Of a stretch of 13,478 nt of DNA, positions 4,427 to 7,847 are shown one piece after another. Both the position numbers and the translations under genes were made by a program. Position 1 is the stretch's first letter, and each line of letters starts with the position of its first letter. Location of the stretch: NCBI GenBank assembly GCA_028711875.1, contig JAQTRJ010000021.1, forward strand, positions 1 to 13,478, given 5' to 3'. This DNA is from a bacterium (GTDB lineage Bacteria > Electryoneota > RPQS01). The notes beneath the pieces are model-generated. The model saw only the letters and a program-made list of their open reading frames with translations, was not told the origin of the DNA and ran no database searches.

Positions 4427-4513
4427 ACCCCCTGTCCCCCCAAAAAACGAGTTTTGGAGGGGAGAATGAGGGTTTCCCCCAAAATCTGTGATTTGGGGGG
4501 AATACAAGGGGGT
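4427..4513. repeat. 87-nt nested palindrome of C and G runs (REP/MITE-like)
   Basis: The ends ACCCCC-TGT (4427-4435) and ACA-a-GGGGGT (4504-4513) are inverted copies with one bulge. Inside are two hairpins. CCCCCCAAAA (4436-4445) pairs with TTTTGG-a-GGGG (4452-4462). TTCCCCCAAAATC (4474-4486) pairs with GATTTGGGGGGAA (4490-4502) at 12 of 13 positions. No protein is encoded. It fills most of the leader between the predicted promoter and the ATG at 4551, and looks like an interspersed non-autonomous palindromic element. A second copy is not present in this window, so repeat status is inferred from form. Confidence 0.55.
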
Positions 4514-4550
4514 CACAAACGAAGCTGCTGAACCGGAACAACTCCCTTCC

Positions 4551-7500
4551 ATGCTGAAATCCACCCACAAAGCCATTACCGAGTACTACCGCCAGCGCGA
4601 CGCTCTTGCACGGCAGGGTGTCATACACGAAATGGGTGTGCGGTCGGCGTTTCAGATGCTCCTTCAGCAAACGGCTCCCAAATACGGCTGGACGCTGGTC
4701 ACGGAGGAGACGCTGCCCAAGTCGCGGCTGCGGCCCGACGGCACGCTCAAGGATGATTTTCAGTTCCGGCGCGGATTCTGGGAGTCGAAGGACGAGTTCG
4801 ACGATCTGCAGATGGAGATCGAGGCCAAGACCCGCAAGGGCTATCCGATCACCAACACGATTTTTGAGGACAGCCGCGAGGCGGTGCTGTTTCAGAATCG
4901 CCGCGAGGCGATGCGGGCGCGGCTCGATGACGCCCGGCAATTGGCCGATCTGCTCAACGCGTTCTACGGCTACAAAGAACCGCACATCGAGGATTTCGAG
5001 AAGGCGGTGGACGAGTTCAAGGAGCGGGTTCCCGAACTCGCCGGCGGGCTGCTGAAAAAAATCGAGGCATCCTACAAGCGCAACGCCGAGTTCCGCGCCG
5101 CGTTCGACGGCTTTTTCGAGCTGTGTAAAACCTCGCTGAATCCGAACATCCGAGCCGAAGCGGTCAAGGAGATGCTGGTGCAGCATCTGCTGACCGAGCG
5201 GTTGATCCGCAATATTTTTGACAATCCCGAGTTCCGCCGCCGCAACGTGATCGCGTCCGAAGTCGAGAAGGTGATTGACGCGCTCACCGGCGAGTATTTC
5301 AACCGGCAGGAGTTTCTCGACCAGCTCAACCGCTTCTACGTGGCCATCGAGCGCGCCGCGCAGGAGCAGTATGAGTTCTCCGAGAAGCAGAAGTTCCTCA
5401 ATTCCATTTACGAGCGGTTCTTTCAGGGATTCTCGGTCAAGGTGGCGGACACGCACGGCATCGTGTACACGCCGCAGCCGATCGTGGACTTCATGTGCGC
5501 GTCGGTGGTGGAGGTGCTGAAGACGGAGTTCGGCAAGGAACTGGGCGACCGCGACGTGTTCATCATTGATCCGTGCACGGGCACCGGCAATTTCGTGGTC
5601 AATCTGCTGCATCGCTTTTCGCCGCGCGACCTGCCCCGCGTCTATCGCCAGCAGCTCTTCGCCAACGAAGTGATGCTCATGCCGTATTACATTGCCGCGC
5701 TGAACATCGAACACGCTTATTATGAACTCACCGGCAAGTACGAGCCGTTCGAGGGGCTTTGTTTCGTGGACACGCTCGATCTCGCCGAGGCCCGGCAGTC
5801 CACGCTGGGCTTCATGAGCGAGAAGAATCTCGAACGGGTCGAACGGCAGCGCAAGGCTCCGATTACGGTCGTCATCGGGAATCCGCCGTACAACACGAAT
5901 CAAGTCAACGAAAACGACAACAATAAGAACCGAAAATACGAAATAGTTGACCGACACATTGCAGAGACTTATGCGCGTGATTCCAAAGCCACCAACCGGA
6001 ATAAGCTCGGCGATCCCTACGTGAAGTTCCTGCGATGGTCTGCCGACCGTTTAGAGGATCGTGATGGAATTGTGTGCTTTGTGACCAACAACAGTTTCGT
6101 GGAGCAGATTGCCTTTGACGGGATGAGAAAGCACCTCTCCGAGGATTTCTCTTCTTTTCGTCATCTCAACCTGCACGGAAATGTCTATAAGAATCCGAAG
6201 CTGAGCGGCACAACGCATAACGTGTTCGGAATCAAGGTCGGCGTGGGAATAACGATTGCTGTACGAAAGAAGAAAGAGAAGAAGAGTAAGCTGTTCTACT
6301 ACCGCGTTCCTGAGTTCTGGCGAAAAGAGGAGAAATTCGATTTCCTGAACGAAGCAGGCTCGGTTGCCTCGGTCAAGTGGCAGCGGCTGACACCCGATGC
6401 GCGGCATAGCTGGTTCCCCGCCGAGCACGAGGACGAGTTTGCGGGCTTCATCCCGCTCGGAACGAAGGAAGCGAAACGCGGAGAAAGTGGAGAAACTCTA
6501 TTTGGCCTCTTCTCCAACGGCGTCAAGACAAACCGTGATATGGTGGTGTATGATTTTGACCAGCGGAGTCTTGAAAAGCGCACAAAGACTTTCATTGCTG
6601 CCTATAATGCAGAAGTACATCGCTATCAAGACGAAGGTATGCCTGAAGATATTGATGCCTTTGTGGATTATTCAAAAATTGATTGGAGTCGAGACCTCAA
6701 GTCGGACTTAAGACGGGGGAAACCGGTCAAGTACAGTTCTAAATGCCTCCGCTCTTCTCTTTACAGGCCTTTCGAGACAATGCACCTGTATTTCGATTCA
6801 ATATTAAATGAGGAAGTATATCGTTGGCCGCAGTTTCAGCCAAATGCTGAATCTGAGAATCTCCAAATCTGCGTGTCCGGCATTGGCAGCAGCAAGCCGT
6901 TTCACGCCTTGATGACGAACATCATTCCCTGTCTCGATCTCCTTGAGAAAACCCAGTGCTTCCCCTTCTACGTGTACGACGAGGACGGGACGAACCGGCG
7001 GGAGAATATCACGGATTGGGCGCTTCAGGCATTCAAAGAAAAATATGAAATAAGAAATGAGAAATTAGAAAGGAAGAAAGATTCCGGCAGGATCACAGAC
7101 CCTGCTCGGCGGGAAAAGGATGCCGCTTCATCGCTCATCGCTCATCGTTCATCGCTTTCAAAGTGGGATATTTTTTATTACGTGTACGGGCTGCTGCACC
7201 ATCCGGTCTACCGCGCGCGCTACGCCGACAATCTGCGCCGCGAACTGCCGCGGATTCCGTTTGCGCCGGATTTTTGGGCGTTCAGCGAGGCGGGACGGAA
7301 ACTCGCCGAGCTGCACCTGAAGTACGAAGAGCTGACGCCGGTCTGGGAAGATTCCGGCAGGGACACAGTCCCTGCTCGGCGGGAATCGGATTCCGGGCAC
7401 GCGGGGACGCATGCCTCGGCGAAAAAATCTGTGGAGATGCATGCCGCAGAGAAGAAATCTGTGGGGACGCATGCCGCGGCGATTCGATTGGTGATTGATC

Positions 7501-7847
7501 CGAAGGCGAAGGCGCGGGATTTGTGGCGGGTGAAGAAGATGAAGCTGGTGAAAGCGAAGGATGAAGGCGGAAGGATGAAGGATGAACCGGCTGAACTGAA
7601 GATCAACGATTCTATCACGATCACCGGCATTCCCAACGAAGCGTTCGAGTACCGGCTCGGCAACCGGAGCGCGCTGGAATGGGTGGTGGATCAATATCAG
7701 GTAAAGACCGACAAGCGCAGCGGCATCGTGAGCGATCCCAACCGCGACGACGATCCCGAATATATCGTGCGATTGGTCGGACAAGTGATCCGCGTCAGCC
7801 TCGACACCGTGGAAATCGTAAACAACCTGCCTGAAAATCTCTCATGA
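4551..7847 (+). CDS. Single-chain type IIG/ISP-like restriction-modification enzyme (PD-ExK nuclease + N6-adenine methyltransferase)
   Basis: A cytoplasmic enzyme of 1098 aa that should both cleave and adenine-methylate its own DNA target. Domains: the N-terminal nuclease has RPDG (61-64) and GFWESKDE with E78-S-K80, a PD-(D/E)xK site, then KGYPITNTIFEDS. A helical linker spans about 110-300. The gamma-class methyltransferase has motif I DPCTGTGNF (340-348) and motif IV NPPY (444-447). A recognition region spans about 450-830. The tail has DIFYYVYGLLHHPVYRARY from 873, as in type ISP enzymes. No helicase motifs are present, so this is not a full ISP motor enzyme. ATG 4551 is chosen over in-frame GTG 4488, because that GTG lies inside a palindrome; the ribosome site is weak. 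Repeat-derived, in-frame insertions lie at residues about 833-871 and 934-981, and a shorter one near 1003-1012. The stop overlaps the next gene's start by 4 nt. Confidence 0.85.
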   Translation: MLKSTHKAITEYYRQRDALARQGVIHEMGVRSAFQMLLQQTAPKYGWTLVTEETLPKSRLRPDGTLKDDFQFRRGFWESKDEFDDLQMEIEAKTRKGYPITNTIFEDSREAVLFQNRREAMRARLDDARQLADLLNAFYGYKEPHIEDFEKAVDEFKERVPELAGGLLKKIEASYKRNAEFRAAFDGFFELCKTSLNPNIRAEAVKEMLVQHLLTERLIRNIFDNPEFRRRNVIASEVEKVIDALTGEYFNRQEFLDQLNRFYVAIERAAQEQYEFSEKQKFLNSIYERFFQGFSVKVADTHGIVYTPQPIVDFMCASVVEVLKTEFGKELGDRDVFIIDPCTGTGNFVVNLLHRFSPRDLPRVYRQQLFANEVMLMPYYIAALNIEHAYYELTGKYEPFEGLCFVDTLDLAEARQSTLGFMSEKNLERVERQRKAPITVVIGNPPYNTNQVNENDNNKNRKYEIVDRHIAETYARDSKATNRNKLGDPYVKFLRWSADRLEDRDGIVCFVTNNSFVEQIAFDGMRKHLSEDFSSFRHLNLHGNVYKNPKLSGTTHNVFGIKVGVGITIAVRKKKEKKSKLFYYRVPEFWRKEEKFDFLNEAGSVASVKWQRLTPDARHSWFPAEHEDEFAGFIPLGTKEAKRGESGETLFGLFSNGVKTNRDMVVYDFDQRSLEKRTKTFIAAYNAEVHRYQDEGMPEDIDAFVDYSKIDWSRDLKSDLRRGKPVKYSSKCLRSSLYRPFETMHLYFDSILNEEVYRWPQFQPNAESENLQICVSGIGSSKPFHALMTNIIPCLDLLEKTQCFPFYVYDEDGTNRRENITDWALQAFKEKYEIRNEKLERKKDSGRITDPARREKDAASSLIAHRSSLSKWDIFYYVYGLLHHPVYRARYADNLRRELPRIPFAPDFWAFSEAGRKLAELHLKYEELTPVWEDSGRDTVPARRESDSGHAGTHASAKKSVEMHAAEKKSVGTHAAAIRLVIDPKAKARDLWRVKKMKLVKAKDEGGRMKDEPAELKINDSITITGIPNEAFEYRLGNRSALEWVVDQYQVKTDKRSGIVSDPNRDDDPEYIVRLVGQVIRVSLDTVEIVNNLPENLS
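7047..7081 (+). repeat. Imperfect GAAATNA heptamer tract inside the restriction-modification gene
   Basis: Five 7-nt units run head to tail: GAAATAA, GAAATGA, GAAATTA, GAAAGGA and the degenerate AGAAAGA. They encode a charged stretch (EIRNEKLERKK) right after ALQAFKEKY, where family members normally lead directly into the FYYVYG motif. The A-rich composition differs sharply from the GC-rich flanks. Confidence 0.55.
7080..7115 (+). repeat. 36-nt hairpin element, copy 1, in frame in the restriction-modification gene
   Basis: Starts GATTCCGGCAGG and ends GCTCGGCGGGAA. It is 33/36 identical to copy 2 at 7350-7385 and read in the same frame, giving DSGRITDPARRE. The core GCAGGATC (7087-7094) and GACCCTGC (7098-7105) pair at 7 of 8 positions around an ACA loop. 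Confidence 0.75.
7128..7155 (+). repeat. Four tandem TCATCG(C/T) heptamers inside the restriction-modification gene
   Basis: Units at 7128-7134, 7135-7141, 7142-7148 and 7149-7155 are TCATCGC, TCATCGC, TCATCGT and TCATCGC. They encode SSLIAHRSS immediately before the conserved KWDIFYYVYG motif. Because 7 is not a multiple of 3, gain or loss of one unit would shift the reading frame. Confidence 0.7.
7350..7385 (+). repeat. 36-nt hairpin element, copy 2, in frame in the restriction-modification gene
   Basis: It encodes DSGRDTVPARRE, 270 nt downstream of copy 1 and in the same frame. Its core GCAGGGAC (7357-7364) and GTCCCTGC (7368-7375) form a perfect 8-bp stem around ACA. Outer arms ATTCC (7351-7355) and GGAAT (7382-7386) can also pair. 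Confidence 0.75.
7404..7493 (+). repeat. Three 30-nt tandem repeats encoding a 10-aa unit
   Basis: Units 7404-7433, 7434-7463 and 7464-7493 encode GTHASAKKSV, EMHAAEKKSV and GTHAAAIRLV. The first two are close copies; the third is degenerate at its end. There are no spacers, so this is not a CRISPR array. The repeats continue the insertion that starts with hairpin copy 2 and precede the conserved DLWRVKKMK segment. Confidence 0.75.
7556..7586 (+). repeat. GGATGAA-type heptamer tract near the end of the restriction-modification gene
   Basis: GAAGGATGAAGGCGGAAGG then ATGAAGGATGAA gives imperfect units of GGATGAA, encoding KDEGGRMKDE. It sits just before INDSITITGIP, a conserved ISP-type tail motif, so it looks like a loop insertion. 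The unit resembles the complement of the TCATCGC tract at 7128-7155. Confidence 0.45.

Follow-up and report, generated by a model that had tools for sequence, protein, structure and literature searches.

REP elements and the RAYT genes with which they form REPtrons are the closest described systems to the repeats reported here. The likeness lies in the short hairpin with covarying stems, in the conservation of its 5' foot, in a copy number in the tens with copies dispersed and, in two related genomes, in inverted pairs around an HUH tyrosine transposase gene. The differences are that the foot is CGCCGA, as set by the search pattern itself, rather than a 5' GT[AG]G, that the lineage is uncultured, and that no intact pair was found in the genome from which our sequence comes. 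Atypical feet have been reported in some subclasses, and the same source reports REPs in frame within RAYT genes and a CnGA foot of a separate class (PMC6006769). The separate class, the TnpA_Y1 class 3 loci, resembles our family in its many copies per genome and in its foot, since the CCGA right before our stem (reverse complement) fits CnGA; the class 3 protein motif is Y----Q, whereas the flanked proteins here carry Y-x-x-x-N-P and are recognised by the REP-associated tyrosine transposase model. The reading that fits the elements best is that of REP elements whose foot is not GTAG.

Palindromes within genes are also on record. In PMC3733652, RPE-4 and RPE-6 of Rickettsia are described as CGTC-tagged intragenic REPs, CGTC repeats are reported without transposase association, and recB of two Xanthomonas species carries different REPs at about one site. 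Like RPE-4, RPE-6 and RPE-1, the elements described here include short palindromes in frame in protein genes, and to that extent the preliminary description of this DNA was right to recall the Rickettsia palindromic elements; but ours have no CGTC end (the ends are ATTCCG and GGCG), their tag is RAYT-linked and intragenic copies are a small minority, so that a REP linked to a RAYT is the nearer kind. With the Xanthomonas recB repeats they share the occurrence of differing REPs near one site of one gene, but here the gene encodes a restriction enzyme, and in several lineages the loops of this enzyme carry multiple unrelated repeats. A literature search by title and abstract found no treatment of REPs in Type ISP enzymes, nor of restriction-enzyme loops as shared landing sites. 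Intragenic REPs and the Rickettsia elements are thus known already; the tag, the kind of transposase beside it, the lineage and the shared landing loops are what is new here.

The window, by which we mean the whole 13,478-nt stretch of DNA analysed, carries a 1119-codon ORF (4488..7847, plus strand) encoding a DrdV-like / Type ISP-like restriction-modification enzyme. Pfam matches (PF22240, PF02384, PF07669 and PF18135) identify coupler, N6-adenine methylase and Type_ISP_C domains, and DrdV (7lo5) ranks first in sequence match as well as in fold (TM 0.70 on query length and 0.77 on target length, rmsd 11.5), in agreement with the restriction-enzyme host proposed earlier. Three linkers of this enzyme, all encoded on the plus strand, are sparsely occupied among 119 homologues (the best 119 other proteins of 7984 matched, ranked by match to residues 780-1100): linker A (residues 856-888, 7053..7151; occupancy 0.04-0.26), linker B (residues 955-998, 7350..7481; 0.00-0.08) and linker C (residues 1026-1035, 7563..7592; 0.01-0.05). 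Residues adjoining linkers A and B have an occupancy of 1.00. DrdV has two residues between the parts flanking linker A and so is without it. The predicted model of the enzyme (mean pLDDT 80) drops below 50 over residues 958-995 and to 57-60 over 861-890, with 97 in the next block, which suggests that linkers A and B are disordered.

Three palindromic elements lie in frame in these linkers on the plus strand. Copy 1 (7081..7111, ATTCCGGCAGGATCACAGACCCTGCTCGGCG) occupies linker A and is read as DSGRITDPARR, with codons from 7080. Linker B contains copy 2 (7351..7381, ATTCCGGCAGGGACACAGTCCCTGCTCGGCG), read as DSGRDTVPARR with codons from 7350, and directly behind it a third element (7390..7421, ATTCCGGGCACGCGGGGACGCATGCCTCGGCG), read as DSGHAGTHASA. 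On the opposite strand the elements read CGCCGA, hairpin, CGGAAT. The preliminary description had reported two 36-nt copies (7080-7115 and 7350-7385) sharing one open frame; its coordinates and frame are correct, and the copies differ where it said and nowhere else (7092/7362, 7093/7363 and 7099/7369), the pair T7093-A7099 being replaced by A7363-T7369 and the mismatch A7092/C7100 by the pair G7362/C7370. The repeat itself is real and beyond chance, but the repeated unit is 31-32 nt rather than 36, and there are three elements where two had been counted. A tandem repeat of three 30-nt units found by repeat search (7403..7492, plus strand) overlaps the third element with its first unit. Further dispersed repeats are translated in frame in the enzyme at 7041-7076, 7124-7154 and 7563-7592 (gaaatgagaaattag type, a TCATCGC array and GGATGAAGG type); linker A thus holds two dispersed repeats besides copy 1, and linker C holds the GGATGAAGG-type repeat. 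An inverted repeat of CCCCCCAAAA / TTTTGGGGGG type lies just 5' of and across the start of the enzyme ORF (4435-4501).

The elements belong to a dispersed family. In the window's genome (2,303,704 bases in 367 contigs, 91.8% complete), a search with GCAGGNNCACAGNCCCTGC gave 27 matches, compared with none for the reversed control; the aligned matches have ATTCCGGCAGGGACACAGTCCCTGCTCGGCG, or something very close to it, in common and differ in their flanks. Allowing any middle, ATTCCGGN{10,36}CTCGGCG returned 89 matches against 1 for the control. Seven were set aside for other lengths (six chance-like, one a shortened 27-nt element), leaving 82 elements of 31 or 32 nt with 39 distinct cores in this 2.3-Mb genome. 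With about 80 further copies, the absence of others in the genome, an outcome for which the preliminary description had allowed, did not materialize, and the small palindrome tolerating translation that it envisaged is present as a dispersed palindromic family with in-frame copies. Stems covary: among the first seven stem pairs of the distinct cores, 254 of 273 cells are paired, compared with a mean of 181 and a maximum of 203 in 2000 partner shuffles, a control that keeps column make-up and not relatedness. The elements end at ATTCCG...GGCG, outside which information drops within a few bases and mainly a purine preference remains. Stop codons are absent from all six frames of 75 of the 82 elements, and from 35 of the 39 distinct ones versus a mean of 26 and a maximum of 33 in 200 dinucleotide shuffles. 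No Rfam family matched within the window at gathering scores, and a known RNA family was rejected on this result.

The distribution of the family is narrow. Of 41 genomes, 4 contain a 25-mer at no more than one mismatch, and these belong to a single family: there are 34 copies in the window's genome, 3 in a genome of the same genus, and 20 and 1 in two of the same family. A degenerate pattern searched in one genome per species (84,980 species, the window's own or very near records possibly left out) matched 22 stretches, all from two MAGs labelled candidate division KSB1 (RPQS01) and bacterium LacPavin_0920_SED4_MAG_61_11 (JAPKYT01). The same pattern had 0 matches in viral contigs, and a viral origin was ruled out on this basis.

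In related genomes the CGCCGA tag is tied to RAYT genes. Nineteen RAYT loci were inspected; the ORF rule gave no gene in three, from more distant genomes, and the other 16 come from the same family or order. The flanks of these 16 ORFs, taken to 400 bp and amounting to 11,954 bases, contain 9 tag-plus-hairpin sites (mean 0.13 and maximum 1 in 100 shuffles), a count that underestimates sites running into the ORF. Intact palindromes in inverted orientation lie on both sides of the RAYT at two of the 16 loci, L131 (G002) and L124 (G011), both in related genomes. The proteins of both score above the NCBIfam cut-off for REP-associated tyrosine transposase, their motifs are of YIHENP and YMLANP type (Y-x-x-x-N-P), and the elements flanking L131, ATTCCGGCAGGGAAGGAATCCCTGCTCGGCG, resemble the window core. 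A one-sided intact element is found at L127 (G006), L129 (G009) and L030 (window's genome, contig C39, at 91 bp), whereas L026 (window's genome), L126 and L130 have the tag on both sides and no intact hairpin by our scoring; the left arm of the L026 tags is unmatched, with 4-5 of 7 pairs. An intact tag palindrome was not found within 400 bp of L027, L028, L029, L125, L128, L132, L134 or L137, and that of L134 (G001) is at 553 bp. Stems vary between genomes, which fits the description of REPs and RAYTs in PMC2817692.

Five Y1-transposase ORFs (L026-L030), all with HUH and Y motifs, are present in the window's genome. Four of the proteins exceed the NCBIfam cut-off for REP-associated tyrosine transposase and the C39 protein (L030) falls below it; none of the five genes has intact tag palindromes on both sides within 400-bp flanks. 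L029, judged by eye, carries palindromes of its own kind. The occurrence of five Y1 genes in one small genome, several of them near palindromes of other kinds, suggests that it has more than a single REP system. Relatives of the C149 RAYT are found in 37 of 41 genomes, and RAYT presence was for that reason rejected as a predictor of the element.

Collectively, we consider it likely that the elements form a REP-like family mobilised by an HUH-type RAYT, a few of whose in-frame insertions persist in flexible linkers; spread was probably by a domesticated transposase. Against this reading weigh the lack, in the window's genome, of any RAYT gene with an intact tag palindrome on each side, the small share of loci with inverted intact pairs (2 of 16), the presence of RAYT relatives in 37 of 41 genomes, and one single-copy insert among three tested in homologues. 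The best surviving alternative is a spread free of any transposase, through recombination or replication slippage, with any role being that of an RNA element in mRNA stability or termination. Hairpin stability is compatible with this: folded as RNA, copy 2 gave z -4.9 on the plus strand and -4.1 on the minus strand, 0 of 200 shuffles being as good on either, and copy 1 did less well, with z -1.4 on the plus strand, matched by 22 of the 200 shuffles, and z -2.9 on the minus strand, matched by 3. Most copies also lie outside genes, and no intact REPtron of the CGCCGA tag was found in the window's genome. Such a spread is nonetheless unlikely because tag hairpins are enriched near RAYT genes in related genomes and form inverted pairs around two of these genes, and the RNA role is additionally at odds with the lack of any Rfam match within the window.

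A less probable alternative is that a local duplication or gene conversion inside the gene produced one of copies 1 and 2 from the other, which would make the genome-wide copies irrelevant. Their similarity does run beyond the element (48 nt at 88%, including 5 nt past the tag), but copy 2 has a core found in 25 of the 82 elements, more than any other, and that of copy 1 occurs once (the core of the third element occurs 5 times). The two copies are therefore separate members of the family, not one pair evolving in place. The compensatory change between them is genuine, yet it belongs to family-wide diversity, since GGGTC/GACCC and GGGAC/GTCCC stems both occur elsewhere in the genome. The homologue P0002, 66% identical over the region, also speaks against duplication: with DSGRVAKTDPARR at linker A (DSGR..TDPARR) and DSGHAGTHASA at linker B, it has the equivalents of copy 1 and of the third element, but ETPPCPPAKAGGKRKP where copy 2 sits in our enzyme. 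Judged from this protein comparison, copy 2 looks younger than either copy 1 or the third element and seems to be a separate, later arrival, because P0002 has another peptide at its site.

Five of the 82 elements are in frame inside ORFs, all in the DSG frame, and the other 77 were not found inside genes. Pfam covered 21 ORFs of the window's genome (G000) and 6 of relatives, the remainder being judged from ORF length and position. Three of the five are those of the restriction enzyme, one lies in frame between the Portal_Mu and Phage_Mu_F domains of a single ORF, and one, counted with reserve, is in a C274 ORF (L107) that appears transposase-like by eye and has no Pfam match. Contig C286 of G000 (L110, L111 and L112) contains Mu-like phage genes and several elements with the GGGTC/GACCC stem, including the portal-MuF one. 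Long ORFs across other copies (dnaB, leuS, a transporter, polA and others) were rejected as intragenic cases, as their Pfam domains start past the element or they match no family. Fetched stretches of relatives yielded 81 elements with at least 5 of 7 stem pairs matching, and one of these is clearly intragenic: in the JAPKYT01 MAG, an oxidoreductase-like gene (L065 2137-3114, JAPKYT010000144.1) on the opposite strand of the element reads it as RRAGSPTLPES between its Rossmann and DUF2520 domains (Pfam). In the other ORFs of relatives that were tested, the element is upstream of the domains or the ORF has no known family.

Most homologues of the enzyme are without the inserted segments. Among the best 119, an insert of at least 8 residues is absent from linker A in 93 and from linker B in 112, and the other refuting outcome named in the preliminary description, homologues that carry the same peptides as ancestral sequence, did not arise. 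Inserts of this size are present at A in 26 homologues and at B and C in 7 each, with A and B together in six; in this set the protein has no stronger insertion site than linker A, and the insert peptides of relatives are unrelated in sequence and length. Homologue DNA was read for five (G012, G003, G002, G001 and G032). Hairpins are found at both A and B in G012, which has the whole gene, and in G003, where the gene ends at the contig end; G032 has no loop inserts. Palindromes also occur in G002 (B and C) and G001 (C), but these matches are C-terminal fragments of about 119 and 86 residues and do not therefore demonstrate tolerated translation. At L051 (G002:C17) and L052 (G001:C52), such C-terminal enzyme fragments persist with palindromes beside or within them.

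Copy number was tested for three homologue inserts, with up to three mismatches. The loop-B insert of G003 has 13 copies in that genome, the loop-C insert of G001 has 7 in G001, 14 in the window's genome and 2 in G012, and the loop-A insert of G012 is a single copy. On the strength of the multi-copy inserts of G003 and G001, unrelated repeats occupy these loops, though some inserts, as at loop A of G012, are not demonstrably repeats. Homologues P0025 and P0091 have at loop A an endonuclease-like stretch (precomputed PF04480, a label we take to be DUF559) with repeat-like peptide around it. The idea that the inserts were selected as spacers or specificity-altering peptides in the target-recognition domain, with hairpins as by-products, accommodates the identical DSGHAGTHASA of P0002 and the 26 of 119 homologues with linker A inserts of 8 residues or more, but it is very improbable in the face of the unrelated peptides of relatives, the disorder suggested by the predicted model and the 77 of 82 elements not found in genes.

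For the REP-like family as we read it, an HUH-type RAYT of the kind flanked by the tag in related genomes most likely acts on single-stranded DNA, recognising there the hairpin together with its 5' foot. The RAYT would then copy or move the hairpin to new sites, and the majority of insertions would survive between genes. Intragenic insertions would persist where the net insert keeps the frame and lands in a flexible linker, helped by the near-absence of stop codons in any frame of the elements. In this manner the two linkers of the enzyme may each have acquired two or more of these repeats, which are translated into disordered peptide with a presumably neutral effect on the enzyme. It is possible, and we propose it tentatively, that the DrdV/Type ISP-like target-recognition domain is a general docking site, in which unrelated palindrome families of different bacteria repeatedly insert in frame into a shared set of two or three loops, the CGCCGA-foot, non-GTAG RAYT system being one source.

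REPs are extragenic by name; the REP-like family described above, whose foot is unusual, sits in frame in a defence gene. For the CGCCGA tag class, the transposase is directly testable. Occupied and empty sites provide a natural series on how elements choose and survive coding sequence. If the reading of a general docking site is true, this enzyme family would record the small repeats active in each lineage.
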